From NCBI RefSeq assembly GCF_016735695.1, contig NZ_JAERQD010000026.1:1-64000 (forward strand): DNA of 64,000 bases, written 5' to 3'. Positions 29,068 through 48,353 of the stretch are shown piece after piece. The stretch comes from Microvirga zambiensis WSM3693 (lineage in GTDB: Bacteria; Pseudomonadota; Alphaproteobacteria; Rhizobiales; Beijerinckiaceae). Within the stretch, counting starts at the first letter, position 1, and each line of letters begins with the position of its first letter. The position numbers and the translations under genes are program-made. A model generated the notes under the pieces. It worked only from the letters and a program-made list of their open reading frames with translations, searched no databases and had not been told where the DNA came from.

Positions 29068-29113
29068 TTGATATATTTACCCAATCATAAAGCCTAAAAC
29101 AATATATTGGACC
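29068..29113 (+). promoter_or_regulatory. 46-bp regulatory element, copy 1 (patatin locus)
   Basis: This copy reads TTGATATATTTACCCAATCA, then TAAAGCCTAAAAC and AATATATTGGACC. It shares AATC at positions 16-19 and ACAATATATT at positions 32-41 with all other copies. CCAAT and ATTGG form a dyad around position 28.5, and CAATATATTG is itself palindromic. The TTGGACC end points to the patatin gene, as the equivalent end points to the downstream gene in every copy. Confidence 0.75.
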
Positions 29114-29128
29114 CGGATAAATCCGGCA

Positions 29129-29365
29129 ATGTATGCACTGGCGGCAGTCTACACGCATACGGAGACCGGAATGCTGCTGCAACCGAGGGCCCTGACGCTG
29201 CCCGGCATCCTGCCGATGGGCCGTCGTCGCGAGGCCACATCAAACCAAGGGCTCGAGCCCTGGCCGGACCGCACGATCACCCAGACCGCCAGCCGCACGA
29301 GGACTGCGCCGGGGGCCCGCACGGCGGCGTCCACCGACCGTCGAGGCGAAGGATCACTGCTATGA
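29129..29365 (+). CDS. Possible leader ORF overlapping patatin
   Basis: A 78-codon frame from the ATG 16 bases past the 46-bp element ends in a TGA that overlaps the patatin ATG (ATGA). The predicted protein is Arg/Thr-rich and has no domain. The overlap and position suggest a translated leader rather than a functional protein. Copy 4 of the element is also followed by a leader frame overlapping its gene. Confidence 0.35.
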   Translation: MYALAAVYTHTETGMLLQPRALTLPGILPMGRRREATSNQGLEPWPDRTITQTASRTRTAPGARTAASTDRRGEGSLL

Positions 29366-30534
29366 ACATCCAAGTCCAGCCGCGTCTGGCCGACGTCAGA
29401 CGACACCTCCCGTTCGAATGCATCGCGCTCGTGCTGCAGGGTGGCGGTGCGCTCGGGGCCTACCAGGCCGGCGTCTACGAGGCTCTCGCGGAGGCCGGCA
29501 TTCATCCTGACTGGGTCGCCGGCGTCTCGATCGGCGCCATCAACTCGGCCATCATCGCGGGGAACGAGCCGGCCGAACGGGTCGCCAAGCTGCGCACCTT
29601 CTGGCAGGAGATCTCCGCAAATCCGCTGCTCGACTGGTCCACTGCCCTCGATGCCGTCGCCCCCAAAGGGGATCTCGCGCGTGCCTTCTTCAACCAGGTG
29701 AGCGCGACCTGCGCCCTCGTCGGCGGGGCCGCGAGCTTCTTCACGCCCCGGCTGCCGTTTCCCTGGCTGCACCCGGATGGCGCCCAGGAGGCAACGAGCT
29801 TCTACGAGACCAAACACCTGAAAAGCACCTTGGAGCGGGTTGTCGATTTCGACCGGATCAATGCCGGCGTGATGCGCTTCAGTGTCGGCGCGGTCAACGT
29901 GCGCACCGGCAACTTCGTCTATTTCGATAACACCAGGCACACAATCCGACCTGAGCACGTGATGGCGAGCGGATCGCTGCCGCCCGGTTTCCCGGCGGTG
30001 GAGATCGAAGGCGAATTCTACTGGGACGGAGGCCTCATCTCGAACACGCCGCTGGATTGGGTGGTCGATGCCGGCCCGCGGCAGGACACGCTCGCGTTCC
30101 AGGTCGATCTGTGGAGTGCCCACGGCGAACTGCCCCGCAACCTGGCCGAGGTCGCGACGCGCCACAAGGAAATCCAGTATTCCAGCCGGACACGCTCCAG
30201 CACCGACCAGTTCAAGCGCGTGCAGCGCCTGCGCCACGCGCTCGCAAGCCTCCTGTCGAACCTGCCGGACGACCTGCGGACGACCGAAGAGGCGAAGCTC
30301 CTCAGCTCGGAGGCCGATCGCAAGGCGTACAACATCATCCAGATGATCTACCGCTCGAAACACTACGAAAGCCATTCGAAGGACTACGAGTTCTCCCGGC
30401 GGTCCATGGAGGAGCACTGGCGTGCCGGCTATCACGACGCAATGCGCACGTTGCGCCATCCCGAGGTGTTGCAGCGGCCCGACAACCAGGATGGGGTCCA
30501 CACGTTCGACTTCCTCAAGGACGGGCGGGAATAG
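29362..30534 (+). CDS. Patatin-like phospholipase (DUF3734)
   Basis: A 390-residue protein from the ATG at 29362 (ribosome binding site AAGGA). The patatin domain has the oxyanion loop LQGGGALGAYQAGVYE, the nucleophile elbow GVSIGAI (GxSxG) and the catalytic Asp in YWDGGLISNTP. The C-terminal ~110 residues are the DUF3734 domain (IQYSSRTRSS, QMIYRSKHYESHSKDYEFSR). It has no signal peptide, so it acts in the cytoplasm or on storage granules. It heads a run with acetoacetate decarboxylase and 3-hydroxybutyrate dehydrogenase, a grouping associated with PHB or ketone-body turnover. Confidence 0.92.
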   Translation: MNIQVQPRLADVRRHLPFECIALVLQGGGALGAYQAGVYEALAEAGIHPDWVAGVSIGAINSAIIAGNEPAERVAKLRTFWQEISANPLLDWSTALDAVAPKGDLARAFFNQVSATCALVGGAASFFTPRLPFPWLHPDGAQEATSFYETKHLKSTLERVVDFDRINAGVMRFSVGAVNVRTGNFVYFDNTRHTIRPEHVMASGSLPPGFPAVEIEGEFYWDGGLISNTPLDWVVDAGPRQDTLAFQVDLWSAHGELPRNLAEVATRHKEIQYSSRTRSSTDQFKRVQRLRHALASLLSNLPDDLRTTEEAKLLSSEADRKAYNIIQMIYRSKHYESHSKDYEFSRRSMEEHWRAGYHDAMRTLRHPEVLQRPDNQDGVHTFDFLKDGRE

Positions 30535-30603
30535 CGCGCGAAGGGGCTGGAGCAGTCGTTCAGCCCCGGCGACCACTCTATCAAGCACAGGAGAACTTCA
30601 GGT

Positions 30604-31389
30604 ATGCACGAGGACACCGTCCGGACCAGAGCATTCGCGATGCCTCTGAACAGTCCGGCCTACCCGATCGGGCCTTACCGCTTCCGCAATCGGGAGTATC
30701 TGATCATCACCTATCGGACCGACTTGAGGAAGCTCCGGGAGCTCGTCCCGGAACCGCTTCAGGTCGACGAGCCGCTGGTGAAGTTCGAGTTCATCCGCAT
30801 GCCGGACTCGAATGGGTTCGGCGACTACACCGAGAGCGGACAGGTCATCCCCGTCTCGTTCCGCGGCCGCAAGGGGAGCTACACCCACTGCATGTTCCTC
30901 GATGACCATTCGCCCATCGCCGGGGGGCGCGAGCTGTGGGGCTTTCCCAAGAAGCTCGCGAATCCCACTCTGCGCACGGAGGTCGACGCCCTTGTCGGCA
31001 CACTCGACTACGGACCGGTTCGCGTCGCGACCGCCACGATGGGCTACAAGCACCAGGCTGCCGAACCCGGAAGGGCCATGGCCTCGCTCCGCGAGCCCAA
31101 CTTCCTGCTCAAGATCATTCCTCATGTCGACGGCACCACGCGCATCTGCGAGCTCGTCGAGTACCACCTCGAGGACATCGACCTGAAAGAGGCCTGGACC
31201 GGTCCGGCATCCCTGGACCTGCGGTCGCATGCCCTGGCGCCGGTCGCGGAACTGCCGATCCTGGAGGTGGTCTCGGCAACGCACATCGTGGCCGACCTGA
31301 CGCTCGGGCTCGGCAATGTCGTCCATGACTATCTGGCGGCATCCGAGCCGTCCCACCGGAAGCAGAGACGCTATGAGGCGGCGGAATGA
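30604..31389 (+). CDS. adc: Acetoacetate decarboxylase
   Basis: A 261-residue ADC-family protein. It has the family opening [20 protein letters not shown], the Glu/Arg pocket ([12 protein letters not shown]) and the Schiff-base lysine segment [15 protein letters not shown]. Length and motifs fit true acetoacetate decarboxylases, which turn acetoacetate into acetone and CO2. It lies 69 bases after the patatin gene with an AGGAGA site upstream, so probably on the same transcript. Other ADC-fold enzymes act on related keto acids, but the ketone-body neighbours favour acetoacetate. Confidence 0.93.
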
Positions 31390-31535
31390 CGGCGGGCCGA
31401 TTTCCGGTTCCGCCATCATCACCAGGGGGTCGCATGCGGAGCGGGGTGGCAAGCATGCATCCCGGAACCGCGACGGAAAGCGAAAGAGGGTGCGCTGATG
31501 GGCGAAAGAGCTCTCTGCGTGCTCCGGAGAGCACC

Positions 31536-31940
31536 ATGATCACGATCAAACGACAACGGATCCTCATTGCCGACGACAACCCGATCATGCGGGAGACACT
31601 CGCGCGGTGGCTGCGCGCCCAGGCCCATGAAGTCATCACGGCGGATACCGGCGAGAAGGCCTTTCTGGCCTTGCGCGACTGGAGCCACCCCGTCAGCTGG
31701 CTGTACACGCGTGCCGTGCTGCCCGGGCTGATCGACGGCTGGATCCTCGCTGACCAGTATCACGAGGTGCACGAGAACAGGGCCGTGATCCTGGCTGGCG
31801 CGGAGCAGCGAACGTCGTCACGCGGCGATCGTGTCTTGAAGCAGCCGACCGCGGCTGCGGTATTCAACGCCATCCATCAGGCCCTGGCGGTCGCGGAGGC
31901 GGCGACTTTCAAATCGGCCGAGGCGGGCCGGGCGGCCTGA
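31536..31940 (+). CDS. Pseudo-receiver domain protein
   Basis: A 134-residue protein from the ATG at 31536 (ribosome binding site GGAGA). The receiver fold is visible: ILIADDNPIMRETLARWLRA with the acidic pair. Where the phospho-Asp should be, the strand reads SWLYTRAVLPGLIDGW, so the Asp is replaced by Arg and there is no acceptor at that site. The C-terminal Lys region reads VLKQPT. It probably signals by binding rather than phosphorylation, or is allosteric. It sits between the decarboxylase and dehydrogenase genes. Confidence 0.8.
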   Translation: MITIKRQRILIADDNPIMRETLARWLRAQAHEVITADTGEKAFLALRDWSHPVSWLYTRAVLPGLIDGWILADQYHEVHENRAVILAGAEQRTSSRGDRVLKQPTAAAVFNAIHQALAVAEAATFKSAEAGRAA

Positions 31941-32024: not shown

Positions 32025-32105
32025 ATGACAGGCAGCGCGGTGTCTTTTGTCCTGGGAGCCGTTGCCCCGCTCGCACTGGTCGGGTGGGCCTTGTTCTTCC
32101 ACTGA
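32025..32105 (+). CDS. Possible 26-residue membrane microprotein
   Basis: The frame reads MTGSAVSFVLGAVAPLALVG then WALFFH, a single hydrophobic helix. AGGAGG is present but only one base from the ATG, which is closer than usual. It lies in the 367-base gap between the pseudo-receiver and the dehydrogenase; nothing else is seen in that gap. Confidence 0.4.
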   Translation: MTGSAVSFVLGAVAPLALVGWALFFH

Positions 32106-32307
32106 CGACGCCCTGGAAGAGCCCGGGACGATGCGGAAGATGAAACCTGGTTCCGTCGGGAGAACATGCGGGGGAGGGCAGACGAGCGATGGTCGGCCGT
32201 CGGTTCGTACCACGTGCCACGCTCGATGGGTCGAGGACCGCAGCGAGATTCCTGCTCGGGACGAGTGCTTCAGACTGAACGATCAAACACAGCACAAGGA
32301 GACTTCG

Positions 32308-33093
32308 ATGACACTTCACTCCGGATCCGCCGTCGTGACCGGCTCGACCAGCGGCATCGGCCTCGCCATCGCCAGGGCCCTCGCCAAGGAAGGCGCCAAT
32401 GTGGTGATCAACGGCTTCGGCGATGCGGGCGAGATCGAGACAGCCCGCGCCGGCATCGAGAGCGAGTTCGGCGTCAAGGCGATCCATTCGCCGGCCGACA
32501 TGTCGAAGCCGCACGAGATCGAGGAGATGATCCGTCTTGCCGAGCGGACATTCGGCAGCGTCGACATCCTCGTCAACAATGCGGGCATCCAGTTCGTCTC
32601 GCTGGTGGAGAACTTCCCGGTCGAGAAATGGGACCAGATCATCGCCATCAATCTCTCCTCTGCGTTCCATGCCATCCGCGCCGCCGTGCCGGGCATGAAG
32701 GCGCGCAAGTGGGGCCGCATCATCAACACGGCCTCGGCCCATTCGCTCGTGGCCTCGCCGTTCAAATCCGCCTATGTGGCGGCCAAGCACGGGATCGCGG
32801 GCCTCACCAAGACGGTGGCGCTGGAAGTCGCCACGCATAGCATCACCGTGAACTGCATCAGCCCCGGCTATGTCTGGACGCCCCTCGTCGAGAAGCAGAT
32901 CCCCGACACGATGAAGGCGCGCAACCTGACCAAGGAGCAGGTGATCAACGACGTGCTCCTGGAAGCGCAGCCGACGAAGCAGTTTGTGACCGTCGATCAG
33001 GTCGCGGCTCTTGCGGTGTACCTGTGCTCGGATGCGGCGAGCCAGATCACCGGCGCCAACCTGTCGATGGATGGCGGCTGGACGTCGGTGTGA
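32308..33093 (+). CDS. bdhA: 3-hydroxybutyrate dehydrogenase (SDR family)
   Basis: A 261-residue classical short-chain dehydrogenase from the ATG at 32308 (AAGGAG, 7 bases upstream). It has the NAD-binding TGSTSGIG, DILVNNAGIQFVSLVENFPV, the catalytic Ser region NTASAHSLVAS, YVAAKHG (YxxxK), and the ending SMDGGWTSV. These match BdhA, which interconverts D-3-hydroxybutyrate and acetoacetate. Its product is the substrate of the decarboxylase at 30604, so the locus can take hydroxybutyrate to acetone. Confidence 0.93.
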   Translation: MTLHSGSAVVTGSTSGIGLAIARALAKEGANVVINGFGDAGEIETARAGIESEFGVKAIHSPADMSKPHEIEEMIRLAERTFGSVDILVNNAGIQFVSLVENFPVEKWDQIIAINLSSAFHAIRAAVPGMKARKWGRIINTASAHSLVASPFKSAYVAAKHGIAGLTKTVALEVATHSITVNCISPGYVWTPLVEKQIPDTMKARNLTKEQVINDVLLEAQPTKQFVTVDQVAALAVYLCSDAASQITGANLSMDGGWTSV

Positions 33094-33264: not shown

Positions 33265-34191
33265 TCACGTGCCTCGGTGTCGCTTTCCCTTGGCATCATG
33301 CTGATCGGGCCGGACGATCTCCAGGAAGTTGACCACGGCCGGATCGTCCGCGTCCCGGCGGAACACGACGTCGGTTCCGACCTGCATCGTGCTGCCGGAG
33401 ATGGGCCTGTAGACGACGTGCTCGCCGATGCTGACGGAGCTGACCGACGAAGGAACGACGGCCACACCCAGTCCGGCGCCGACAAGGCTCACGAGAGAAA
33501 ATCCGCTGCGCACTTCGTATGCGACACGTGGCACGAACCCGACCACCGACTGGATCAACGAGCGGTCCTGCTCGATGTCCGATCCGACGTAGACGATGAA
33601 CGGCTCGTCCGCGAGCGACTCCCGCGGAATCCGGCTCCGCTTGGCGAGGGGATGGTCCGCTGGAAGCGCCACCCTCAGCGGCCATTCCGCCAGGCGGATC
33701 GCATCCAGCTCCGGCGGCAGCTTCCCGGCAGGACCGGCGGCAAAGCTGGCGATGAATCCGACATGGATCCGGCCTTCCAGGAGCTGTGCGATCTGCGTGC
33801 TCGGATGCAGCTCGTGAAGCCCGAGTTCGACATCGGGAACCCGTCGCTTGTACTGCCGCAGGACCTCTGACAGGACCCCGGAGTAGGACGTGTCTACGGA
33901 GTAGCCGATCTCGATGCGGCCGATCTCGCCGCGTCCGGCCCGGCGGGCCACGACGGCGGCATGCTGCGCCTGATCAAGGGTGCGGTAGGCCTCCTTGAGG
34001 AACAGGCGGCCTGCCTCTGTCAGGGTCACCACCCGGTTGGTCCGGCTGAGGAGCTGGACACCCAGCGTGTCCTCCAGGGCCTTGATCTGGATGCTCAGGG
34101 CTGGCTGCGCGATGTGAACCCGCTCGGCTGCCCGGCCAAAATGCAGTTCCTCGGCGGTGGCGACGAAGTACCGGAGCTGGCGCAGATCCAT
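33265..34191 (-). CDS. LysR-family regulator, candidate controller of the 46-bp element
   Basis: A 308-residue LysR regulator. The N-terminal helix-turn-helix is MDLRQLRYFVATAEELHFGR then LHFGRAAERVHIAQPALSIQ and LEDTLGVQLLSRT. The C-terminal two-lobed effector domain has IEIGYSVDTSYSGVL, VGFIASFAAGPAG and LVGAGLGVAVVPS. Its ATG is the first base of copy 2 of the 46-bp element, which it shares with the divergent HWE kinase gene. LysR proteins usually bind dyads of this size beside their own gene. This makes it the best candidate regulator for all five copies. Confidence 0.93.
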   Translation of the reverse strand: MDLRQLRYFVATAEELHFGRAAERVHIAQPALSIQIKALEDTLGVQLLSRTNRVVTLTEAGRLFLKEAYRTLDQAQHAAVVARRAGRGEIGRIEIGYSVDTSYSGVLSEVLRQYKRRVPDVELGLHELHPSTQIAQLLEGRIHVGFIASFAAGPAGKLPPELDAIRLAEWPLRVALPADHPLAKRSRIPRESLADEPFIVYVGSDIEQDRSLIQSVVGFVPRVAYEVRSGFSLVSLVGAGLGVAVVPSSVSSVSIGEHVVYRPISGSTMQVGTDVVFRRDADDPAVVNFLEIVRPDQHDAKGKRHRGT

Positions 34192-34236
34192 TGATATGTT
34201 TCTCTAATCGTAGTGCCAAAAACAATATATTAGATC
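34191..34236 (+). promoter_or_regulatory. 46-bp regulatory element, copy 2 (LysR/HWE kinase intergenic)
   Basis: Reads TTGATATGTTTCTCTAATCG, then TAGTGCCAAAAAC and AATATATTAGATC. This is the most divergent copy, and it has a paired change: the dyad arms read CTAAT and ATTAG instead of CCAAT and ATTGG, so symmetry is kept. It begins at the LysR start codon and ends 50 bases before the kinase ATG. Confidence 0.75.
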
Positions 34237-34286
34237 TGGACCATACGGGCAACTAATCCCTATCCCTGCCTTCACAGGATAGATTG

Positions 34287-35819
34287 ATGTCCATGATCTC
34301 CCGCTCACTCACCGACGACAACAAGCCCGTTGCACTACCAGCTAAAGAAAGCTTGACCGGCCAGAGCGTCATCGACACCTCAAAGCTCGCTCATATTGAT
34401 GGTGACAAGGGGATCCTGCTCTCTCGCAGCGACCCGATCGACCTGCTCTCGAAGCAGGGTGACTTCGTTGACAAAAGCGAGTCTCGTTTCCGTTCCCTTG
34501 CCAACATGATCCCGTCGATCGTCTGGACCGCGGCTCCGGACGGCACGACGACCTTCGTCAACGACCAGTGGTACCGCTTCTGCGGCATCACGCCCGGACA
34601 GAATGCCCGCCGCTGGCCGCTGTCGGTGCTCCATCCCGATGATCAGACCCGCTGCTGGGAGGCGTGGACGGCCGCGCGGCAGAGCGGACGGAACTTCGAG
34701 ATCGAGACCCGCATCCGTCGCCACGACGGCGAGCACCGCTGGTTCCTGACCCGGGCCATCCCGGTACGGAATTCCGAAGGCGCCATCACGGCGTGGTCCG
34801 GGACGACCACCGACATCCATGACCGCAGGCTCGCCGAAGAGGCCCTGCGTGCCAGCGAGGCGCGTTTCCGCACCATTGTCGAGACCGCCAACGAGGGGAT
34901 CTGGCTGATCGGCGCCGATGCCCGGACGCAGTTTGTGAATGCCCGCATGGCGGCCATGCTGGGCTGTACCCCGGACGAGATGACCGGGCGTCCGGCGCTG
35001 GAGTTCACCTTCCCCGAGGACGAGCCGAACCACCGCGAGCGGGTCGGCCGCAATCTTGCCGGCGAGACCGAGCAGTTCGAGATCCGCTTCCGGCGCAAGG
35101 ACGGTACGGCCATCCCTGTCCTGGCCGCCACCAGCGCCCTGCGTGACGAGTCAGGGCAGGTCTCTGGTGCATTGGGCATGTTCTCCGACATGAGCGAGAA
35201 GAAGCATCTGGAGGAGCAGCAGGCCCTGCTCATGCGCGAGCTCCATCACCGGGTGAAGAACACCCTGAGCACGGTGCAGGCCCTGGTGAACTCCACGGCC
35301 CGCAACGCGCCCTCGGTCAAGAACTTCAGGGACTCCCTGACCCAGAGGATCATGTCCCTCGCAAAGACCCACACGCTCCTGTTCGACAACGAAATGGCAG
35401 GCGTGCAGCTACGGGATATCCTGCGCAGTGAGCTCGAGCCTTATGACGATCAGACCGGCACACGCGTCATCCTCACCGGACCGGACCTGGACGTGCCTGC
35501 CCATCTGACACTGGCTGTTGGGATGGCGGTGCATGAGCTGACGACAAACGCGGCCAAGTATGGAGCACTGTCCAGTCCGCAGGGACGCGTTCAGGTCACA
35601 TGGAGCTTGCCTGCCGCGGACGTCGGGGAGAGCAAGATCCGGTTGGAGTGGGTGGAGCAAGGCGGGCCCCCTGTAGCGGTGCCAGACCGCAAGGGCTTCG
35701 GAACAACGCTGCTGGAGCGCGTGCTCAGCCGTCAACTCGGCGGTGAGGTTGAGGTGGCCTTCGCACCGGAAGGATTGCGCGTTCGGGTGGAGGCTGCCTT
35801 GGTGGGTGTGGCGCGGTGA
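34287..35819 (+). CDS. PAS-PAS HWE histidine kinase
   Basis: About 510 residues from the ATG at 34287 (AGGA 7 bases upstream). The first PAS domain (PSIVWTAAPDGTTTFVNDQW, PAS_3 type) and its PAC segment are followed by a second PAS (FRTIVETANEGIWLIGADAR). The HWE box is LLMRELHHRVKNTLSTVQAL, and the ATPase has HELTTNAAKYGALS, LEWVEQGGPPV (the W-x-E) and GFGTTLLERVL. There are no membrane helices. It is divergent from LysR across copy 2 of the 46-bp element, so its expression is probably set by that site. A partner regulator is not adjacent. Confidence 0.92.
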   Translation: MSMISRSLTDDNKPVALPAKESLTGQSVIDTSKLAHIDGDKGILLSRSDPIDLLSKQGDFVDKSESRFRSLANMIPSIVWTAAPDGTTTFVNDQWYRFCGITPGQNARRWPLSVLHPDDQTRCWEAWTAARQSGRNFEIETRIRRHDGEHRWFLTRAIPVRNSEGAITAWSGTTTDIHDRRLAEEALRASEARFRTIVETANEGIWLIGADARTQFVNARMAAMLGCTPDEMTGRPALEFTFPEDEPNHRERVGRNLAGETEQFEIRFRRKDGTAIPVLAATSALRDESGQVSGALGMFSDMSEKKHLEEQQALLMRELHHRVKNTLSTVQALVNSTARNAPSVKNFRDSLTQRIMSLAKTHTLLFDNEMAGVQLRDILRSELEPYDDQTGTRVILTGPDLDVPAHLTLAVGMAVHELTTNAAKYGALSSPQGRVQVTWSLPAADVGESKIRLEWVEQGGPPVAVPDRKGFGTTLLERVLSRQLGGEVEVAFAPEGLRVRVEAALVGVAR

Positions 35820-35916: not shown

Positions 35917-35962
35917 TCGATATATTTTTCCAATCATAAACAAAAAAACAATATATTGGACC
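35917..35962 (+). promoter_or_regulatory. 46-bp regulatory element, copy 3 (efflux operon)
   Basis: Reads TCGATATATTTTTCCAATCA, then TAAACAAAAAAAC and AATATATTGGACC. The CCAAT/ATTGG dyad is intact. It lies 70 bases before the first adaptor gene of the TriABC-like operon, in the same orientation as the other copies. Confidence 0.75.
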
Positions 35963-36032: not shown

Positions 36033-37130
36033 ATGGCAGGCAGTCGTCAATGGCATCAATCAGTCTGTTGCTTGGCAATGGTTGCCGTGACAGGCCTGGC
36101 CGGCTGCCAGCAGCAGACCAGCCGACCGGAGAATCCTCCGATTGTGGTTCAGGTCGAGACGGCCAAGTTGACCGATTATGCCCCGATGGTGCAGCTGACC
36201 GGCGAAATTCGCGCACAGGTCGAGAGCGACCTGTCGTTTCGGGTGGGTGGCCGCATCACCGAGCGCCTGGTCAACGTCGGCGACCACGTGACCGCCGACC
36301 AGGTGCTGGCCCGGCTCGATCCGCAGCAGCAACAGGCGACGCTGACCGCCGCCGAGGCCGCCGTCCAGTCCGCCGAGGCCGTTCTTCGCGAAGCGACCTC
36401 CACCTACCAGCGCCAGAAGGCGCTGCTCGTCCAAGGCTTCACAACCAAGCGGGAGCACGATCAGGCGCAGGAAGCGTCCCGTACGGCGCAGGCTGCACTC
36501 GATACCGCCCGGGCCCAGCTCGGCACCGCCCGCGACCACCTGTCCGATACGGTGCTGCGGGCCGGCGTTTCCGGGGTCATCACCGCCCGCAAGGCCGAGA
36601 CCGGGCAGGTCGTGCAGGTGGCCCAGACCATCTTCTCCATCGCCCAGGACGGGCCGCGCGATGCGGTGTTCAATGTCTACGAATCGATCTTCACCCGCGA
36701 ACTCGCTGATCCCGCCATTGCGCTGACGCTGGTGTCCGACCCGGCCGTGATGGCAACGGGCACCGTCCGAGAGATCTCCCCGACCGTGGACCGGGCCACC
36801 GGAACTGTCAGGGCCAAGGTCGCCATCAAGCATCCGCCGGCAGATATGACACTCGGCGCCGCCGTCATCGGCGAGGGCCGGTTCCAGACCCGCAGGCTCG
36901 TCGTGATCCCGTGGGGCGCGCTTTCCAGCGGGAACGGTCGACCGGCCGTGTGGACCGTCGATCCCCGGAGCAAGTCCGTGTCGCTGAGGCCAATCACCGT
37001 TGAAGCCTACGAGACCGGAAAGGTGGTCGTGCGTGGGGGACTCCAACCTGGAGAGATCATCGTGACCGGTGGAGCGCAGTTCCTGCGGCCCAACCAAGTT
37101 GTTGCATTCCCCGAAGGAGCGGCCTCATGA
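36033..37130 (+). CDS. RND efflux adaptor lipoprotein, first of two (TriA-like)
   Basis: A 365-residue periplasmic adaptor (HlyD/MFP family). The signal sequence ends in a lipobox (VTGLAGC), so it is anchored to the inner membrane by lipid. The biotinyl-lipoyl hairpin has LSFRVGGRITERLVNVGDHV and VLARLD. The alpha-hairpin is LTAAEAAVQSAEAVLREATS to TARDHLSDTVLRAG, and the beta-barrel contains VISPTV-like and AVIGEG segments. Its stop overlaps the next start (ATGA). Copy 3 of the 46-bp element lies just upstream and probably sets operon expression. Confidence 0.92.
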   Translation: MAGSRQWHQSVCCLAMVAVTGLAGCQQQTSRPENPPIVVQVETAKLTDYAPMVQLTGEIRAQVESDLSFRVGGRITERLVNVGDHVTADQVLARLDPQQQQATLTAAEAAVQSAEAVLREATSTYQRQKALLVQGFTTKREHDQAQEASRTAQAALDTARAQLGTARDHLSDTVLRAGVSGVITARKAETGQVVQVAQTIFSIAQDGPRDAVFNVYESIFTRELADPAIALTLVSDPAVMATGTVREISPTVDRATGTVRAKVAIKHPPADMTLGAAVIGEGRFQTRRLVVIPWGALSSGNGRPAVWTVDPRSKSVSLRPITVEAYETGKVVVRGGLQPGEIIVTGGAQFLRPNQVVAFPEGAAS

Positions 37131-38206
37131 ACCCTATTCTGATATCCGTGGCCGCCCTGAGTGTGGTCGGCCTGCTCGCCGCCTGCCAGGAAGAGCACCA
37201 TCCCGAGGCGCCGGCACCCCGACCCGTGCTCACCGTCGTTGTTGCCCCGCAGACTGTGCGGACCGTGGGCTTCGCCGGAACGGTCGAGCCCCGGTACAAG
37301 TCCGACCTGGGCTTTCGGGTGCTCGGGCGCATCGTCAGCCGAGATGTCAATGTGGGCGACGTGGTCAAGAAGGGGCAGCGCCTGGCCACGCTCGACCCCC
37401 TTGCCTATCAGCTGGCGGTGAGATCGGCGCAGGCTGACCTCTCCAGCGCGACCGCCCGCCTCGAGAATGCTGCCGCGGCGGAGACCCGTCAGCGCATGCT
37501 GCTGCAGCAGAGCATTGCCAACCAGGCCCAGTATGATGCCGCCCGGCAGGCCCGCGAGTCTGCGGAGGCCGGCGTCACGAGCGCCCGAGCAAACCTCGAC
37601 AAGGCCGAGGAGCAGCTCGGATACACCGAGCTTCGCGCCGACTTCGCCGGTGTGGTCACCGCCACCGCGGCGGAACTCGGGCAGGTGGTCCAGCCGGGAC
37701 AAACGGTCGCCTCGGTGGCTCGCCCGGACATCCGGGAGGCGGTCGTCGATCTGCCCGAGAGCATCGGGCGGGATCTCAGGCCGGAGGCCCGCTTCGATGT
37801 CGCTCTTCAGCTCGATCCCTCGGTGCAGGCGGCCGGGTCGGTGCGGGAGATCGCGCCACAGGCGGATCCGGCCACCCGGACGCGGCGGGTGAGGGTCACC
37901 CTCGATAAACCACCCGAGAGCTTCCGTCTCGGAACAACGATCACCGCCTCGGTTACGACAGAGGCGGTCGCGGGGATCGAGCTGCCCGACTCGGCCCTGC
38001 TGGAGCGGGACGGCAAGACGATGGTCTGGGTCGTCGATCCGGTCACTGGGACGGTGTCGACCCGGGACGTGACGATCGTCGCCCGGGACGGATCCTCCAT
38101 CAGGGTTCTGAACGGGCTCACCCGCGGTACGCGCGTGGTCAGCGCCGGCGTGAACAGCCTGACCCCCAACCAAACCGTCAAGATCGCAGACCAGGCCTCG
38201 CAATGA
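37127..38206 (+). CDS. RND efflux adaptor lipoprotein, second of two (TriB-like)
   Basis: A 359-residue adaptor paralogous to the previous gene. The lipobox is VGLLAAC. The lipoyl half has LGFRVLGRIVSRDVNVGDVV and LATLDP, the hairpin runs LSSATARLENAAAAETRQRM to EEQLGYTELRADFAG, and the barrel includes TIVARDG. It overlaps both neighbours by ATGA. Two different adaptors beside one pump is the layout of TriABC in Pseudomonas aeruginosa, where both are needed. Confidence 0.92.
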   Translation: MNPILISVAALSVVGLLAACQEEHHPEAPAPRPVLTVVVAPQTVRTVGFAGTVEPRYKSDLGFRVLGRIVSRDVNVGDVVKKGQRLATLDPLAYQLAVRSAQADLSSATARLENAAAAETRQRMLLQQSIANQAQYDAARQARESAEAGVTSARANLDKAEEQLGYTELRADFAGVVTATAAELGQVVQPGQTVASVARPDIREAVVDLPESIGRDLRPEARFDVALQLDPSVQAAGSVREIAPQADPATRTRRVRVTLDKPPESFRLGTTITASVTTEAVAGIELPDSALLERDGKTMVWVVDPVTGTVSTRDVTIVARDGSSIRVLNGLTRGTRVVSAGVNSLTPNQTVKIADQASQ

Positions 38207-41200: not shown

Positions 41201-41310
41201 CGGCGCTGTACGTGGCCTGGTTCCGCATCAAGGCGCCCTCCGGACCCCATACGACGGTGCCAGCCCCTGAGGCGGCGCATGAATCAGAGAAGACGCATGC
41301 GCCGGCATAG
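38203..41310 (+). CDS. RND efflux permease (TriC-like)
   Basis: A 1035-residue inner-membrane proton-driven pump with the RND layout of 12 helices and two large periplasmic loops. The N-terminal helix is WYFMIISAVAGFLAYVNLGR, followed by EEDPSFTIKTMVI. The proton-relay helix IIALGLLVDDAMIAVEMMVA carries the DD pair. The second half has LLFLPALYVAWF and GFVAILGVLALVGILIRNSV. The two adaptors upstream and the opening FNLSDWALEHRSLVWYFM point to the TriC type. No outer-membrane channel gene is present, so a TolC-like protein from elsewhere must serve it. Confidence 0.94.
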   Translation: MNSRFNLSDWALEHRSLVWYFMIISAVAGFLAYVNLGREEDPSFTIKTMVIAAQWPGATVGDTARQVTERIEKKLEELDSLDYTRSQTTPGQSVIYVNLKDTVRSRDVPGVWVRVRNMVNDIKRELPQGVVGPVFNDDFGDVYGNVYAFTADGLTQRQLRDYVEDVRTKVLTVPNVGKVNLIGAQDEVIFLEFSTREMAALGISQQDVMQTLQAQNAITPSGVIQAGPERISVRVTGQFTSEESLRNLNLRINDRFFRLSDVAAISRGYLDPPQALFRFNGQPAIGLAIGMKTGANLLQFGEALHEQMAKITAELPIGVGVHLVADQPVVVEEAVGGFTKALFEAVVIVLVVSFVSLGVRAGLVVALSIPLVLAMTFVVMQYTGISLQRISLGALIIALGLLVDDAMIAVEMMVARLEAGDTLRKAATAVYTSTAFPMLTGTLVTVASFIPVGLNTSNAGEYTFTLFVVIATSLLLSWIVAVLFAPLLGVTLLPKTMKKHHDEPGRLGKMFSRILDGAMRWRWLTIGVTVVMFGVSLYGMKFVEQQFFPSSDRNELLVDFNLPQNASITDTKAQMDRFEAKLAGDPDIEHWSSYVGQSAVRFILSFDPQPSNAFYGQMVIVTKSIEARERLRAKIKTWAREEFAGLDVYVDLLAMGPPAGRPVQYRLSGPDVQKVRDLAQQLAAVVGEHPRVTNIGFNWNEPARVVKVDVLQDKARQLGVTSQDIAGALNGVVGGTSITQVRDSIYLVDVVARARAAERRSIETLQNLQLPGKNGQSVPLAAVATFHYELEQPVIWRRSRLSTITIRGSIVDATQPATVVQQLEPKVQEFIRTLPAGYQVAVGGPVEESAKSQGPIMAVVPLMLFIMATILMVQLQSFSRLFLVVAVAPLGLIGVVAAMLPSGAPMGFVAILGVLALVGILIRNSVILIVQIDDHLREGWDPWEAVVDATMHRTRPILLTAAAASLALIPIASEVFWGPMAFAMMGGIIVGTLLTLLFLPALYVAWFRIKAPSGPHTTVPAPEAAHESEKTHAPA

Positions 41311-41449: not shown

Positions 41450-42118
41450 GTGCCCAACGACAATCCGCCTCACAGCGATAAACGCCCGCATGATCTCAGG
41501 AGCACGCTCACGAAGCGTCAGATCCTGGACGGCGCGCGTCAGGTCTTTCTCCTGAACGGCTATGCGGGCACCAGCATCGACCAGATCATCAATCAGTCCG
41601 GCGTCTCGAAAGGATCGATCTATCACCACTTCGACAGCAAGGACGCCCTGTTCAGAGCGCTGATCGCCGCGGAAGCGGAGAGGATCGCACGGGCATTGCC
41701 GTCCGTCGACCAGGACGACCCTGACCCGTGCTCCGCCCTGCGTCAGATCGGGCTGGCCGTTCTCGAAACCCTGAACAATCCGGCCACCATCGCCACCCTG
41801 CGCCTGATCATCGGAGCCCTCGGCCGGTTTCCCGGGCTCGGAGAAGAGTTCCTTCGGAACAGTCTGGGCCAGACTGCGAAGCAGATCGCAGCTTATCTCG
41901 ATCTCCGAGCGACTGCCGGCAACCTTCGGATCCGCAGCAGCCGTGCCGCGGCAGAGGAGTTCGCGAGGCAGTGCATGGCGCACGTGATGGAGCGCGTTCT
42001 GGTGCCCCACAAACCTTGCCTGACAGAAGCGGAATGCACGGCCGTGGTCGAGGACATTCTCCGAAACTCGGACATCCGGCGGGATACCGGCCGCACGGCG
42101 GGGGAGCAGGCCTCATGA
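41450..42118 (+). CDS. TetR-family regulator
   Basis: A 222-residue protein from a GTG start with AGAGGAG upstream. The N-terminal helix-turn-helix is TKRQILDGARQVFLLNGYAG then TSIDQIINQSGVSKGSIYHH and FDSKDALF. The C-terminal domain resembles TetR_C_7/AcrR types (TLRLIIGALGRFPGLGEEFL). It lies 139 bases after the pump gene on the same strand and is a natural candidate for local control of the efflux operon. Confidence 0.93.
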   Translation: MPNDNPPHSDKRPHDLRSTLTKRQILDGARQVFLLNGYAGTSIDQIINQSGVSKGSIYHHFDSKDALFRALIAAEAERIARALPSVDQDDPDPCSALRQIGLAVLETLNNPATIATLRLIIGALGRFPGLGEEFLRNSLGQTAKQIAAYLDLRATAGNLRIRSSRAAAEEFARQCMAHVMERVLVPHKPCLTEAECTAVVEDILRNSDIRRDTGRTAGEQAS

Positions 42119-42282: not shown

Positions 42283-44151
42283 ATGACGCTGGAAGCCCTT
42301 GCCCGGTCCGCTCCGTTGGAGCAACAATCCCCCTGTCAAAAACCCGAGATCCGCATGCGACAGCGTATCTCCCCACGCTATTTCTCTCTCAGCACGCTTC
42401 TGGCGATCAGTTTCGGGGGCTTGATGCTCCTCGCCGTCGGCTCCGTTCTCGTGGTAAGCCTCGGGGGCGCAGGGCGAAACACGGGCGAGCTTCTGGCCGA
42501 TAAGGCCGACCTGATTCTGTCCTCCATCGAGCAGCGCGTCCGGCAACATCTTGGCCACGTCGTGGCCCAAGCCGAGTATCTGAAGACCTCGATTGATCGG
42601 GGGCAGCTCGACATCAAGGATGCCAGAGCGCTCGAAACCGCCCTCAGATCTGCCCTTGCCGCAACACCGCAGGTAACCGGCATCGGCTTCATTCGGGCCA
42701 ACCTGGAGGTCGTGCGGGTGGAGCGACGAGATGGCAGTCTCATCATCGAGGATTGGTCCGGCCCGCCCGAGATCATCAAGCTCTTCGCGGATGTGCGCGC
42801 CGGCAAGGATGCCGGATGGAGGGACCCCGTCTGGAGCCATCCGTTTCAGCAGACAATCATCCCGTTTATCGTCCCCGTGCATCGTGACGGAGACCTCATC
42901 GGACTCCTGGTCCCGGCCATTGAGGTCACCGAGCTCTCCCGATACGTCGCCGAGATCTCCTCGCCCGTGCAGAGAGCATTCATCCTCCACGGCGAGGACG
43001 CGGTGCTGGCTCACCCTGCCCTGGCCAGCAGATCCCCACCAGGGGCACGCGAGCGCCCATTGCCGCTCCTCAGCGAGGTCGACGACGCCGTTCTGCAAGC
43101 GATATGGTCGGCTGAGCGACAACCGCTGAATCTGCCTCTGAGGTCGACGGACCAGGGGCATATCGTTCCATTCTCAGGCGATTACTTCATCTACATGTAC
43201 CGCCGGATCGCAGGGTTCGGTGACAAGCCCTGGATCATTGGCGCCGCTTTGCCCGGTTCAGACGCCGGGCAGGAGGCGGAGCGACTGCAGACGATGGTGC
43301 TGACCGGCTTAGGGCTCCTGCTCGTCTCCGTGCTCAGCGCGATCGCGGTCGGTCGGCGCCTCGCCCATCCGATCCGTGATTTCGTTCGCGTGACAGAAGC
43401 CGTCCGGATGCTCGAGTTCGACCGAGCCCCCGTTCTCTCACGCAGCCGGATCCTGGAACTCGACACAGCGAGCCAGGCGCTAAACGCCATGGTTGCAGCT
43501 CTTCGCTGGTTTGAACTGTATCTGCCCAAACGCCTTGTTCATCGCCTTATCGCGCAGGGGCAGGACGATCTCGCCAACGCCTATGAGCGTGATGTTACCG
43601 TCATGTTCACGGATCTGAGCGGCTTCACACGAATGGCATCGCGGCTGTCCCCTTCCGAAACGGCAAAGTTCCTGAACTCGCACTTCGCTCTGGTCGGCGC
43701 CTGTGTCGAGGCCGAGGGAGGCACGATCGACAAGTACATCGGCGACAGCCTCATGGCGTTTTGGGGGGCACCGGAGGAGCAACCCGACCACGTTGAACGG
43801 GCCTGCCGGGCCGCACGGGCGATCGCCTCCAAGGTTCACGCCGACAACCGAGCCCGATTGGCAAGCGGCCTCGCTCCTCTCCGGGTGAGGATCGGCATCA
43901 GCACGGGCCCTGCTCTCGTGGGGAATATCGGGGCTCCCAGCCGGATGAACTACACGCTCGTCGGTGATGCCGTTAACATCGCGCAGCGCCTGGAGCAGGT
44001 TGGGAAAGACGTCCAAGATGACAGCGACGTGATCACATTGATCACTGAGAGTGTTCACTCTGGCATGGCTGAACCCGGGCAGGCCGTATTCTGGGCCCGA
44101 CGCGAGGTGCGGGAGAGAGATGGCACAATGGGGATCTACCGGCTCACTTAA
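42283..44151 (+). CDS. Membrane class III adenylate/guanylate cyclase
   Basis: A 622-residue protein (a start at 42355 is also possible). A first membrane helix (LLAISFGGLMLLAVGSVLVV) is followed by a ~260-residue periplasmic Cache/CHASE-like sensor, a second helix (TMVLTGLGLLLVSVLSAIAV), and a HAMP-like linker. The catalytic domain has VTVMFTDLSGFTRMASRLSP (metal Asp), YIGDSLMAFWGAP (second Asp) and VRIGISTGPALVGNIGAPSR then MNYTLVGDAVNIAQRLE. This is a complete class III active site, so cAMP (or cGMP) production in response to an outside signal is expected. Confidence 0.92.
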   Translation: MTLEALARSAPLEQQSPCQKPEIRMRQRISPRYFSLSTLLAISFGGLMLLAVGSVLVVSLGGAGRNTGELLADKADLILSSIEQRVRQHLGHVVAQAEYLKTSIDRGQLDIKDARALETALRSALAATPQVTGIGFIRANLEVVRVERRDGSLIIEDWSGPPEIIKLFADVRAGKDAGWRDPVWSHPFQQTIIPFIVPVHRDGDLIGLLVPAIEVTELSRYVAEISSPVQRAFILHGEDAVLAHPALASRSPPGARERPLPLLSEVDDAVLQAIWSAERQPLNLPLRSTDQGHIVPFSGDYFIYMYRRIAGFGDKPWIIGAALPGSDAGQEAERLQTMVLTGLGLLLVSVLSAIAVGRRLAHPIRDFVRVTEAVRMLEFDRAPVLSRSRILELDTASQALNAMVAALRWFELYLPKRLVHRLIAQGQDDLANAYERDVTVMFTDLSGFTRMASRLSPSETAKFLNSHFALVGACVEAEGGTIDKYIGDSLMAFWGAPEEQPDHVERACRAARAIASKVHADNRARLASGLAPLRVRIGISTGPALVGNIGAPSRMNYTLVGDAVNIAQRLEQVGKDVQDDSDVITLITESVHSGMAEPGQAVFWARREVRERDGTMGIYRLT

Positions 44152-44253: not shown

Positions 44254-44299
44254 TTGATATATTTTCACAATCATTAGGCCAAAAACAATATATTGGACC
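44254..44299 (+). promoter_or_regulatory. 46-bp regulatory element, copy 4 (leader and membrane protein)
   Basis: Reads TTGATATATTTTCACAATCA, then TTAGGCCAAAAAC and AATATATTGGACC. One dyad position (the first C of CCAAT) is A here. It lies 51 bases before the leader ATG at 44351. The leader region also shares a ~22-base stretch with the one after copy 2. Confidence 0.75.
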
Positions 44300-44350: not shown

Positions 44351-44431
44351 ATGTCCATAACCACGAGCACCGTCACCTTGGATCCGGTCGTGACCATTAC
44401 CACGAGAGAGGCGGATGGCCATGGATCTTAA
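44351..44431 (+). CDS. 26-codon leader peptide
   Basis: MSITTSTVTLDPVVTITTRE then ADGHGS. An AGGA ribosome binding site lies 7 bases before the ATG. The stretch CACAGGATGGATTGATGTCC is repeated, with one change, before the HWE kinase start at 34287. The leader stop lies inside the next gene (17-base overlap with the ATG at 44415), so coupling of translation is likely. The Thr-rich content might allow attenuation, but no hairpins were seen to support that. Confidence 0.5.
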   Translation: MSITTSTVTLDPVVTITTREADGHGS

Positions 44432-44915
44432 CCCGCAATGGATCACCCTCATTTCGGCCTCGACGGCAATGATCGCGTCGATCGCTGGGCCATTCGTCAA
44501 CACGCGGATCGCCAAGTTCGAGTTCAAGGCCAACGTGCTGTCGGTCAATCGCCAGAAATGGATCGACGCAATGCGGGACCTTGTGGCGAGCCTTAACTCG
44601 CAGCTTCTGATCGCGGCCGCGTTCCGCCAGACGCTGGAGGAGCCGACGGGTCTCATCATCGCACGGGATCCCGAGCTTTCCAGGCGCGTGGAGAACTTGT
44701 TGCGGACCGTTTCCAAGATCGAGCTCATGCTCAACCCGCTCGAGCAGGACCATCAGCAGCTCAATACCTTGATGAAGGAGGGGATCGACCAGCTTCGCTC
44801 TCCATTGCTGGACGATGGCGTCGAGGACCGCATCGAGGCCATCAGCCGCGATATCACACAAGTCCTGCAAGGTATCCTTAAGCACGAATGGATTCGTGTG
44901 AAGCGCGGCGAGTAG
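44415..44915 (+). CDS. Membrane-anchored helical protein
   Basis: A 166-residue protein. An N-terminal hydrophobic stretch (WITLISASTAMIASIAGPFV) is followed by a soluble, mostly helical domain with VNRQKWIDAMRDLVASLNSQ and VSKIELMLNPLEQDHQQLNT. The RQKWIxxLRxxxA-type motif after the membrane helix is seen in phage- and plasmid-associated proteins of unknown function. It follows copy 4 of the 46-bp element and the leader peptide. No function is known. Confidence 0.75.
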   Translation: MAMDLNPQWITLISASTAMIASIAGPFVNTRIAKFEFKANVLSVNRQKWIDAMRDLVASLNSQLLIAAAFRQTLEEPTGLIIARDPELSRRVENLLRTVSKIELMLNPLEQDHQQLNTLMKEGIDQLRSPLLDDGVEDRIEAISRDITQVLQGILKHEWIRVKRGE

Positions 44916-45470: not shown

Positions 45471-45532
45471 AGCATCGGGCATACAGAGGAGTCCACTTTT
45501 TGCTGACGCGGATCGCCAGCTCCGCACGATGG

Positions 45533-45772: not shown

Positions 45773-45871
45773 CGAAGACCTTTTGGATTGCGGGAATGAC
45801 AGCACTATGATGCTTAGTGGGCCAAGTCACTTCCTGAACCTATCAGCAAAATTTTGAGCGTGACAAAACGA

Positions 45872-47068
45872 TCAGCGGAGACTGAACAAGTTAGCGGCAC
45901 TTTTTACCGTCTGTGATGCTCCCGCCGTCATGATCCCGAACTGCTCACCGACGCCAATCTTCCCATCCGTAATTGTCTGCCCGGACACGAGTCGCTCGCC
46001 AAGCAGCCTGACCACCTCAGGACGTTCCGCGAACTTGCCATGGTTGAGGGGATCGCCGCTCTTGAGGGCTGTCAGATCAAGGACCGTTACACCGGCCTTC
46101 TCCAGTTCGGACCGATAGGGCTCGGCCGCCGGGTTGATCTGGCCGAGCCGATCGACATCGCCGCCAATATAGCGCGACAGCCCAAGGGCTTGGTCGTCCT
46201 GGGATACGAAGAGCGTGAGCTTCGGGCGGGACGGACCCAATTCCTGCGACTGACGGCGAAAGACATCGATGTCGAGATCCGGCGACGCCAGAATCACGTT
46301 CCTGATCTTTGGCGCGACGCGGCCGCCCCGGATCGCCATCTGACGCAGGGCCTCGGTCACCAGCCAGCTTCCCATCGAGTGGGCCATGATCGTGACATCA
46401 CCGACGGACGGATCCTGAGCGGCACGCCGCAGAACCTCTTCGAGCTGCGTCCGGGAATAGTTTGTGCTTTCCCGGTCATAGGCATAATCGAGGGCATTGG
46501 CCCGCGAGGGCCAGGTGAACAGGATTGGCGCGACATCAGCGTGGGAGTCGTGCACGATCTGAGCGAAGCGGTACACCGCGTCTTCATAGCGGTTGTTGAA
46601 TCCATGCACGAAGATCAGGACGCGACGGCTGCGCGGGAGATGCTGCTTCAACCATCCACGAACCTCGCCGAGGTCGGCCAGGTTCCTGACCTTTGTCGTC
46701 GCGAACTCTGTCGAAGGATCTGGAGGCAGGCGCTTCGGCCATTGCACCTGTCCGACCTGCCGGTTCCCCTCCGGAGGGATGGAGACCGTGATCTCGGTCG
46801 TGTACAATCCCTGACCACGCTCTCCAGAAAACAGAACCGCTGGATCCGACGCTGGCGCCCGCGTGGTCGCGACAAGAAGGTTCACTTGTGAGGCGCCTGG
46901 AATGGTTGCCGGAACCGGCGCCAGAACCCCTTTGGGCAAGCCCGCGCATCCCATCACACCCATGCAAAGGGCAATGATGGCGGCAAGGCGCAGGGTTTGC
47001 TGCAGGACGCCTGGCGTTGGGAACGCCCCTGAGGCTTTGACCATCGGTGTCATTATCTGCTGTTTCAA
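45872..47068 (-). CDS. DUF900 alpha/beta-hydrolase lipoprotein
   Basis: A 398-residue protein. The N-terminal segment LAAIIALCMGVMGCAGLPKG has a lipobox, so it is probably lipid-anchored in the envelope. The hydrolase core has VNLLVATTRAPASDPAVLFS, the oxyanion strand VLIFVHGFNNRYEDAVYRFA, the nucleophile elbow IMAHSMGSW (Ser), an Asp region (LASPDLDIDVF) and a late His (NHGKFAERPEV). DUF900 proteins are esterase/lipase-like, with substrates mostly unknown. It is a single gene. Confidence 0.9.
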   Translation of the reverse strand: MKQQIMTPMVKASGAFPTPGVLQQTLRLAAIIALCMGVMGCAGLPKGVLAPVPATIPGASQVNLLVATTRAPASDPAVLFSGERGQGLYTTEITVSIPPEGNRQVGQVQWPKRLPPDPSTEFATTKVRNLADLGEVRGWLKQHLPRSRRVLIFVHGFNNRYEDAVYRFAQIVHDSHADVAPILFTWPSRANALDYAYDRESTNYSRTQLEEVLRRAAQDPSVGDVTIMAHSMGSWLVTEALRQMAIRGGRVAPKIRNVILASPDLDIDVFRRQSQELGPSRPKLTLFVSQDDQALGLSRYIGGDVDRLGQINPAAEPYRSELEKAGVTVLDLTALKSGDPLNHGKFAERPEVVRLLGERLVSGQTITDGKIGVGEQFGIMTAGASQTVKSAANLFSLR

Positions 47069-47092
47069 ATGATCAGGTTACGCGGGCGTGTC

Positions 47093-47356
47093 TTAGTTCA
47101 GGCACGAGGTTAATCTACTCGCCAGGTCCGACTGCACTGATCCCCCGAGAGGAAGTGACAGGAGAGACTTTCCTGCACCGTCTGCAACAACCAAGCTCCA
47201 GCCGATCAAGTCATGCTCCAGCGATGGATCTTCCTGCCGCAGTTCCTGAATCGCCCGGAGAGCCTCAGCATGCGCCATCGCGAGGTCTGTGACCTCAATG
47301 CCGTATGAATCGGCTAAGAGTTCCTGGTCATTTACAAGATGGAAATAGCAGCGCAC
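47093..47356 (-). CDS. DUF6894-family protein
   Basis: An 87-residue protein from a GTG start that gives VRCYFHLVNDQELLADSYGI, the standard DUF6894 opening. It continues GIEVTDLAMAHAEALRAIQE and LIGWSLVVADGAGKSLLSLP. The frame is open further upstream, but the GTG matches the family start and has AGGATC before it. It is the intact relative of the frameshifted gene at 7968. Function unknown. Confidence 0.75.
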   Translation of the reverse strand: MRCYFHLVNDQELLADSYGIEVTDLAMAHAEALRAIQELRQEDPSLEHDLIGWSLVVADGAGKSLLSLPLGGSVQSDLASRLTSCLN

Positions 47357-47524
47357 GGACTGATCCTGGCAATCGGCTAATTGGGCTGTGCTTGAAGAAG
47401 CAAAGTCGCTTGGTTCTGAGACTGAAGCCGAACACGGAAAAAACAAGCATTCGGCCTGGAATATGCAAGCCGGGTGCAACGGTCGGCTCAGCGACGGGCG
47501 CCGCTCCTGCTGCACGTGAGTCGT

Positions 47525-48205
47525 TCAGTAGGTGCTGAACCTGTAGTTCAGGCCGGCGCGGATCACGCCGATCTCGGTCTCGTCACTGCCCGCGATGACG
47601 GGAAGGTCGTCGTCATCCTGCTCGAGATTGACGTACAGACCTTCGACCTTGGCAGTCAGGTTGTCGGTGAAGGCGTACTCGACACCGGTACCGAGGGTCC
47701 AGCCGACACTCGTGTCATCCGACTTGCCGAGGTCATTGCTGATCTTGCCATAAGCCAGGCCACCGGTGGCGTAGACCAGAGCGCGATCGAACGCGTAACC
47801 TGCGCGGGCGCGCACGGTGCCGAACCAGTTCTCATCATCGTCGTCGCTGTCGAGGCCGGGGATGCTGGTGTCGCCCCCGATGTCGGCGTACTGGATGTCC
47901 GTCTCGAGACCGAGGACGAAGGAGCCGATCTGGTAGTTGTAGCCGATCTGACCACCGCCGACGAAGCCACCCTCGTCGTCGACTTCGTACGTCGCTCCGT
48001 TGATCACCACATCATCGTCATTGGCGTTCCAACCGTAGCCGGCATTCACACCAACGTAGAAGCCGGTCCAGGTGAAGACCGGAACAGCCGCCACGGCCGG
48101 AGCCGGAGGAGCCATGCGGCCCGGCAGGTCGGCCGCGTGAGCCGCGGTTCCGAGGGTGCCCGCAACAGCCAGGGCGGCGAGGTGAGCGTTGGGTCCCCGT
48201 CTCAT
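47525..48205 (-). CDS. Omp25/Opa-like outer-membrane beta-barrel protein
   Basis: A 226-residue protein. A short signal peptide ends AAHAADLP, then VFTWTGFYVGVNAGYGWN starts an 8-stranded barrel of the Omp25/OmpA-like porin family. Strands include GGFVGGGQIGYNYQIGSFVL, NWFGTVRARAGYAF, VYATGGLAYGK, and the final GVIRAGLNYRFSTY with its C-terminal aromatic. The Asp-rich loop (LDSDDDDEN) may bind divalent metal. Copy 5 of the 46-bp element lies 102 bases upstream, so it probably belongs to the same regulon. Confidence 0.92.
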   Translation of the reverse strand: MRRGPNAHLAALAVAGTLGTAAHAADLPGRMAPPAPAVAAVPVFTWTGFYVGVNAGYGWNANDDDVVINGATYEVDDEGGFVGGGQIGYNYQIGSFVLGLETDIQYADIGGDTSIPGLDSDDDDENWFGTVRARAGYAFDRALVYATGGLAYGKISNDLGKSDDTSVGWTLGTGVEYAFTDNLTAKVEGLYVNLEQDDDDLPVIAGSDETEIGVIRAGLNYRFSTY

Positions 48206-48307
48206 TTCTTATCCTTTCAGTGAGATGGACTGACATCAGGAGGTGCGGGTGCGCTGGGCATCGACCTCATTCAGATGCCAGGCAAACTTCGCCGCAAACG
48301 CTATTCG

Positions 48308-48353
48308 GGTCCAATATATTGTTTTTCACCTTACGATTGGGAAATGACATCAA
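48308..48353 (-). promoter_or_regulatory. 46-bp regulatory element, copy 5 (porin)
   Basis: On the minus strand it reads TTGATGTCATTTCCCAATCG, then TAAGGTGAAAAAC and AATATATTGGACC. The CCAAT/ATTGG dyad is intact. It is the only copy on the minus strand, and the porin it precedes is also on the minus strand, so the orientation rule holds. Confidence 0.75.

Follow-up and report, generated by a model that had tools for sequence, protein, structure and literature searches.

A 46-bp intergenic element inherited with a LysR-type regulator marks a putative local regulon in Microvirga zambiensis

RESULTS

The 64,000-nucleotide stretch of Microvirga zambiensis WSM3693 DNA studied here (positions 1 to 64,000 of contig NZ_JAERQD010000026.1; hereafter, the window) carries five copies of a 46-bp element, each of which is very probably a binding-site and promoter module of the LysR-type regulator encoded at 33265 to 34191 on the minus strand. 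From the sequence of the element, its anatomy and its co-inheritance with lysR, we infer that this LysR would bind the element and activate transcription in response to an effector. Since the element is co-inherited with LysR and abuts the start of its gene in 9 of 9 cases, we propose LysR as its cognate regulator.

Five intergenic copies of one element

The source genome is a 7,364,131-base (7.36-Mb) draft in 257 contigs. Rechecked in the window, the copies lie at 29068 to 29113 (copy 1), 34191 to 34236 (copy 2), 35917 to 35962 (copy 3) and 44254 to 44299 (copy 4) on the plus strand and at 48308 to 48353 (copy 5) on the minus strand. As a sequence-only reading of this DNA had claimed, all are 46 bp long and free of gaps, and AATC at element positions 16 to 19 and ACAATATATT at positions 32 to 41 are identical in all five. 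That reading also had the TTGGACC end of each copy facing the downstream gene. The orientation holds throughout, every copy being intergenic, directed toward a start codon and placed the same way around relative to its gene (5/5), but the letters hold in only four, the copy at 34191 ending in TTAGATC.

A search of the window with the 15-mer AAACAATATATTGGA, allowing up to 3 mismatches, gave 5 matches (100 shuffles: mean, 0.11; maximum, 1), and a 31-base pattern with up to 3 mismatches matched only these five copies in the whole draft genome (reversed control, 0). From 34 sites in other genomes, with the window copies left out, we derived a matrix and a model that uses sequence only, R1. The matrix scored the five copies at 73 to 83, the next place in the window (−7) being one of them read backwards, and R1 found exactly five sites in the whole draft (E values, 3.1e-14 to 5.2e-12), all within 20 kb of one contig. 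The shuffle counts and the R1 E values rule out a chance origin of the five copies. They are also the only matches within the window, as had been noted for the region outside 29 to 48 kb, and the genome-wide scan for copies without bias, which the sequence-only reading had named as grounds for rejection, brought no further copy to light. Although R1 and the matrix recover the 34 training sites by construction, the five window copies, four Bosea sites (contigs C41 and C32) and two weak Paraburkholderia sites are independent finds of R1.

Pairwise identity among the five copies is 74 to 89% inside the element (mean, 0.80 over positions 1 to 46), with means of 0.33 to 0.46 in the six bases to its left, the spacer and the −10 box and of 0.23 to 0.27 farther out, which is the level of shuffled DNA. 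No flanking word longer than 4 bases is common to the copies, and no Rfam family reached its threshold at the elements. The only place in the window with an Rfam match is 5883 to 5951, a tRNA barely over threshold (30.3 versus 29 bits).

Anatomy of the element

The layout was read from 39 sites, namely, the 5 window copies and 34 sites from relatives. Left out of this set were a chance match in the window, a site read backwards, a match inside a gene, two matches in genome G049, four matches that repeated the same DNA where loci overlap and a match in Gulbenkiania. Element positions 3 to 7 are mostly GATAT, and positions 16 to 19 are AATC, TATC or TATT; T5 and A17 are kept in 39/39 sites, giving a T-N11-A box, and the outer dyad pair 3-19 matches in 32/39. 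Farther right, positions 33 to 42 are mostly CAATATATTG, a short AT palindrome lying against the presumed −35 box, and positions 40 to 45 are mostly TTGGAC. A CTAWYC-like hexamer (5 or 6 of 6 letters) stands exactly 17 bp past TTGGAC in 24 of the 39 sites, with every other spacing found in at most 7. At this 17-bp spacing, copy 3 has CTATCC and copy 4 has CTATTC, both behind TTGGAC, and copy 2, which also carries the T5-N11-A17 box and the AT palindrome, has TTAGAT followed by CTAATC. If TTGGAC is the −35 box, arithmetic on this layout centers the first box near −65. A recognition box near −65 plus a second site at −35 is the usual layout of LysR-type activators.

Some similarity among the 39 sites extends 6 bases to the left of the element, with A at element position 0 in 37/39 sites and C at −1 and at −2 in 27/39 each. 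These extra bases match the beginning of lysR itself, and the left end of many copies (GGTCCA or GATCCA) is the reverse complement of the right end, TGGACC.

For the LysR family, one published account gives a box consensus of CTATA-n9-TATAG, or T-n11-A, and a recognition box with a further site reaching up to −35 (PMC5002191). The T-N11-A spacing (39/39 here) is common to that description and to our element, and so would be the recognition box with a further site to −35 if TTGGAC is the −35 box and the hexamer 17 bp on is the −10 box, whereas the half-sites here are GATAT and mostly AATC or TATC, in an imperfect dyad.

The element is inherited with LysR

The window LysR has HTH_1 and LysR_substrate domains, both above the Pfam cutoff, and its gene is transcribed away from copy 2, with a start codon that overlaps the element by one base. 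Across relatives, which we searched with the 31-base pattern (all 119) and with R1 (32 of the 47 other genomes of the genus and 18 genomes of the order), the element goes with LysR, and the suspicion of the sequence-only reading that this protein is the regulator has thus gained support. The LysR was found at ≥73% identity in 5/119 relatives and the element in the same five; among the other 114, only G049 gave a pattern match, a single one with 3 mismatches and no left box. Near relatives of the LysR occur in M. sesbaniae, M. arvi, M. lupini and Microvirga strain KLBC 81 (as a set, G009, G032, G026 and G015) and in Bosea sp. Tri-44. Each of the nine genes that we examined for a LysR of this type (one each in G000, G009, G015, G026 and G032, two in G047 and two in Bosea) has an element at its start, although one of the nine sites, a Bosea copy, is weak (R1 E value, 0.026). 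A class-wide search for the window LysR (385 genomes, its own included) returned only its own genome at an E value of 1e-60. In alignments of the relatives read by eye, the element and the downstream gene stay together where the upstream flank is unrelated, in keeping with the earlier proposal of a shared operator or promoter.

Clusters that lack this LysR serve as a natural control. The transporter of the RND pump encoded behind copy 3 has a counterpart with ≥80% identity in seven Microvirga genomes without this LysR (G001, G003, G007, G017, G018, G021 and G035). The element pattern had no match in these seven genomes, and no element was found in the stretches fetched from LysR-less clusters (best matrix score, −18). 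Genes for patatin, acetoacetate decarboxylase (ADC) and a short-chain dehydrogenase (BDH) adjoin the pump in G001, G017 and G018, as they do in the window; the stretch fetched from G021 extends only to BDH, and just this member of the set is visible. In G001, G017, G018 and G021, a TetR-family gene occupies the LysR slot (Pfam TetR_N; 8350 to 9240 in locus L092, 9757 to 10401 in L093, 5132 to 5803 in L094 and 11919 to 12542 in L096) with no element, and one GACTATATAGTC palindrome adjoins this gene in all four, possibly reflecting a regulator swap. G018 has, in addition, a counterpart of the window TetR (81%), together with the pump and the patatin operon but without LysR or element. Because LysR-less pump clusters are without the element, it follows LysR and not its would-be target genes or the window TetR.

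Outside the genus, Bosea Tri-44 has two LysR copies and seven R1 sites, which lie at the two lysR starts, before HlyD genes (twice), before DUF900, before patatin and before a citrate-synthase-like stub. Two of the four sites on contigs C41 and C32 are weak (E values, 0.026 to 0.029). Contig C32 (L091; 5 kb) carries the second LysR (84%), an element pair before patatin-ADC and a BDH-like gene (37%) and another element before a second HlyD gene. Both M. lupini and Bosea have the element and LysR with no HWE kinase nearby. Two Paraburkholderia genomes (L081 and L082) have a sole R1 site each, weak in both (E values, 0.031 and 0.0187), which abuts a LysR gene 37 to 38% identical to that of the window and divergent from ilvD. 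This is as expected for an inherited LysR site, though it was not foreseen.

Putative targets in the window

Copy 1 is the putative promoter of a plus-strand operon that begins with a patatin/DUF3734 gene (Pfam; near 29362 to 30534). We place its start at the ATG near 29362 and not, as previously read, at the TTG at 29107, which leaves a 248-nt leader (29114 to 29361) between element and ATG. Six loci conserve the first aligned part of this leader (up to about +120, counted from the element), and the leader holds a 64-codon open reading frame (ORF). ADC follows (30604 to 31389; Pfam), and then a response-regulator-like ORF (31386 to 31940; 24.1 bits, below the Pfam cutoff of 30.2) and BDH (32047 to 33093), which Pfam identifies as a short-chain dehydrogenase and whose name is taken from the sequence-only reading. 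Together, patatin, ADC and the short-chain dehydrogenase suggest lipid or ketone-body metabolism.

Copy 2 lies between the divergent genes for LysR and a PAS-PAS-HWE histidine kinase (34287 to 35819, plus strand), whose N-terminal ~60 amino acids (aa) resemble the start of citrate synthase. Copy 3 precedes the genes of a TriABC-like RND pump, all on the plus strand: two adaptor genes (36033 to 37130 and 37127 to 38206) and a transporter gene (38203 to 41310), whose best match among solved structures is 6vej (1,476 bits), which we take to be TriABC. The pump shares with TriABC-type pumps the order of two adaptor genes and then the transporter, but differs in lying beside LysR and its sites, with a TetR gene in the LysR slot in four related Microvirga clusters. 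On co-occurrence, the element's cognate regulator is not the TetR-family regulator of the window's pump cluster (41450 to 42118, plus strand). A protein with an adenylate/guanylate cyclase domain (42283 to 44151) is encoded between the pump and copy 4; no counterpart was found in the M. lupini and Bosea loci, and of the two clusters in G047, one yielded none.

Behind copy 4 on the plus strand are a 26-codon leader ORF (44351 to 44431), probably a remnant of the 5′ end of a citrate synthase gene, and orf166 (44415 to 44915), whose start it overlaps. The 166-aa product of orf166 has no Pfam match, and the gene is conserved next to the pump both in relatives that have LysR and in relatives that lack it. 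Copy 5 precedes a minus-strand gene for an outer-membrane beta-barrel protein (47525 to 48205; OMP_b-brl); downstream of it, on the same strand, is a DUF900 hydrolase gene (45872 to 47068), which in Bosea is preceded by an element of its own. In G015 and G047, an element (L060, 1959; L070, 17244) also precedes the gene for a glycine-rich protein that begins with a signal-like stretch and is not among the window targets.

Stubs of lysR and citrate synthase beside the element

G047 has an element followed by a complete gene for citrate synthase (430 aa; Pfam, 471 bits), the only such case seen. When 21 chosen other elements were compared with the start of this gene, the DNA past the −10 box aligned at 10 (scores, 44 to 153; shuffled maximum, 21), in stubs of 60 to ~330 nt with differing end points, and the other 11 gave no alignment. 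Among the ten, several are repeats of a single event (three for the HWE kinase and two for orf166), and a contig edge truncates one of the ten. The HWE kinase N terminus is 48 to 53% identical to citrate synthase over residues 1 to 121 in G015 and G047; in the window (34287 to 34550), where the resemblance is to citrate synthase residues 1 to 85, identity is 42% over 85 columns with a 23-residue gap.

The lysR comparison drew on 37 chosen sites, of which the 32 elements not adjoining an intact lysR were compared with the lysR 5′ end (100 shuffles each). Five scored clearly above their shuffles (23 to 34 versus 15 to 19) and in exact register: two patatin sites and a citrate-synthase stub of G047, and a citrate-synthase stub and a glycine-rich-protein site of G015. 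A sixth, a G047 HlyD site, was barely above (16 versus 14). The remaining 26 showed no lysR stub, save for one out-of-register match (17 versus 16), and none of the four window sites tested shows one. Both stubs are present at two sites (L067, 10171; L060, 5111). No intact lysR-element-citrate synthase arrangement was seen in the genomes examined, and R1 found no element at the window genome's own citrate synthases (C88 and C215).

Because stubs of both genes flank some elements, the regulon may have grown by promoter capture, an ancestral divergent lysR-element-citrate synthase region having been copied with its stubs and joined to new genes, the HWE kinase being one such join. We regard the case for this history as evenly balanced, and the direction of copying is our reading of the alignments.

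DISCUSSION

In the mechanism that we propose, a LysR tetramer would occupy the recognition box GATAT-N7-NAATC (positions 3 to 19, centered near −65) and the second AT-rich site, CAATATATTG (positions 33 to 42), against the −35 box. Effector binding would shift LysR such that RNA polymerase uses TTGGAC-17 bp-CTATCC, and at copy 2, which overlaps the lysR start codon, LysR would repress its own gene as well. The five copies would join five transcription units: patatin-ADC-BDH, the HWE kinase (with lysR), the RND pump, the small protein and the outer-membrane protein.

Among the closest parallels by targets and site type is WatR of Methylomonas sp. DH-1, described as an acetate-responsive, self-repressing LysR-type regulator whose targets include an RND pump, citrate synthase and small ORFs, with sites of the T-N11-A type near or over −35 boxes (PMC10355033). 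Although regulator type, kinds of target and sites of the T-N11-A type are common to both systems, the WatR motif, ATTGTT-N11-AACAA, is unlike the window element, its 22 peaks are spread genome-wide rather than over one local cluster, the name membrane fusion protein is given to just one WatR-controlled pump gene, as against two adaptors in the window, and a full citrate synthase lies behind the element in G047 only. The same text has AlsR regulated by acetate (PMC10355033). The best NCBIfam model for the window LysR is that of Bacillus subtilis AlsR, a fellow member of the LysR family, and it matches over its full length; at 234.6 bits versus a cutoff of 430, we rejected an identification as AlsR, and no acetoin genes were seen among the window targets. 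Because of the WatR and AlsR parallels, we tentatively suggest that the signal might be a weak organic acid or acetyl-CoA overflow.

Several observations weigh against LysR as the regulator of the element. The dyad is imperfect, with pairs 6-16 and 7-15 matching in only 9/39 and 8/39 sites. Since the −10 letters were derived from the same sites, only the spacing is a fair test, and copies 1 and 5 have poor −10 hexamers (TGTATG before patatin and CGAAGT before the outer-membrane protein, both at 17 bp). Many of the 39 sites are orthologous to one another, and the number of independent events behind the five relatives may be small. In a set of 15 loci with distant LysR proteins (28 to 54% identity; L036 to L049 and L056), 14 have no site around the LysR start (matrix score, <0), among them G046 (L056), where LysR is 54% identical and no element was found; the fifteenth, Gulbenkiania (L040), has a weak matrix score of 22.6 and was not found by R1 at an E value of 0.5. 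The exact motif is therefore limited to close relatives.

The element could instead be the operator of the TetR at 41450 to 42118, which adjoins the pump in the 7 element-bearing pump loci compared and would find a short palindrome in the core CAATATATTG, or of some other regulator in the cluster, for instance the HWE kinase paired with a response regulator. We consider this improbable, given that G018 has the pump, this TetR and the patatin operon but neither LysR nor element, and that relatives of the TetR (E value, ≤1e-40; 53 to 82%), several of which may be paralogues, occur in six element-less relatives (G017, G018, G020, G028, G038 and G041). TetR is absent from the second Bosea contig, which has LysR and elements, although that contig spans just 5 kb, and the variant with the HWE kinase is at odds with M. 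lupini and Bosea, which keep the element and LysR without such a kinase nearby.

Still less probable is an origin as a miniature mobile element, or as a neutral dispersed repeat, with copies landing in intergenic regions by chance. Of the target duplications and dispersed copies expected of such an element, neither was found. The mirrored ends, GGTCCA/GATCCA and TGGACC, do look like short terminal inverted repeats, and copies were clearly duplicated along with adjacent DNA; however, the left-end letters match the start region of lysR and some copies carry more of lysR, so that these letters do not have to be transposon ends. Nor would such a repeat be expected to have no copy outside 20 kb of the genome, one gene-relative orientation in 5/5 copies, outer flanks at chance-level identity with no shared word over 4 bases, and a presence tied to LysR in 5/5 relatives. 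An equally slight chance attaches to a promoter class of an alternative sigma factor with no dedicated activator: the conserved block extends into the −35 region, with a constant distance to the −10 hexamer, but conservation runs back to about −75, which is long for a sigma site, and the element tracks the LysR gene, whose start codon it abuts in 9/9 cases.

A LysR-type regulon is a well-known kind of system, which makes this one less novel than the sequence-only reading implied. That this particular set is undescribed rests on searches of open-access literature, where we found no paper on the regulon and, among the matches listed, none that names Microvirga; one search brought up the WatR paper alone. 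For this LysR branch, where the literature searched gave no described site, the element provides a motif that is ready to use. Genome sequences suffice here to read off regulator, site and targets, and Microvirga itself supplies natural controls, since the same cluster is under LysR and the element in some members of the genus and has a TetR gene and no element in others. The stubs of lysR and citrate synthase could reveal how a local regulon recruits new members, and the cluster suggests a connection, open to testing, of weak-acid or acetyl-CoA stress to lipid and ketone metabolism and an RND pump.

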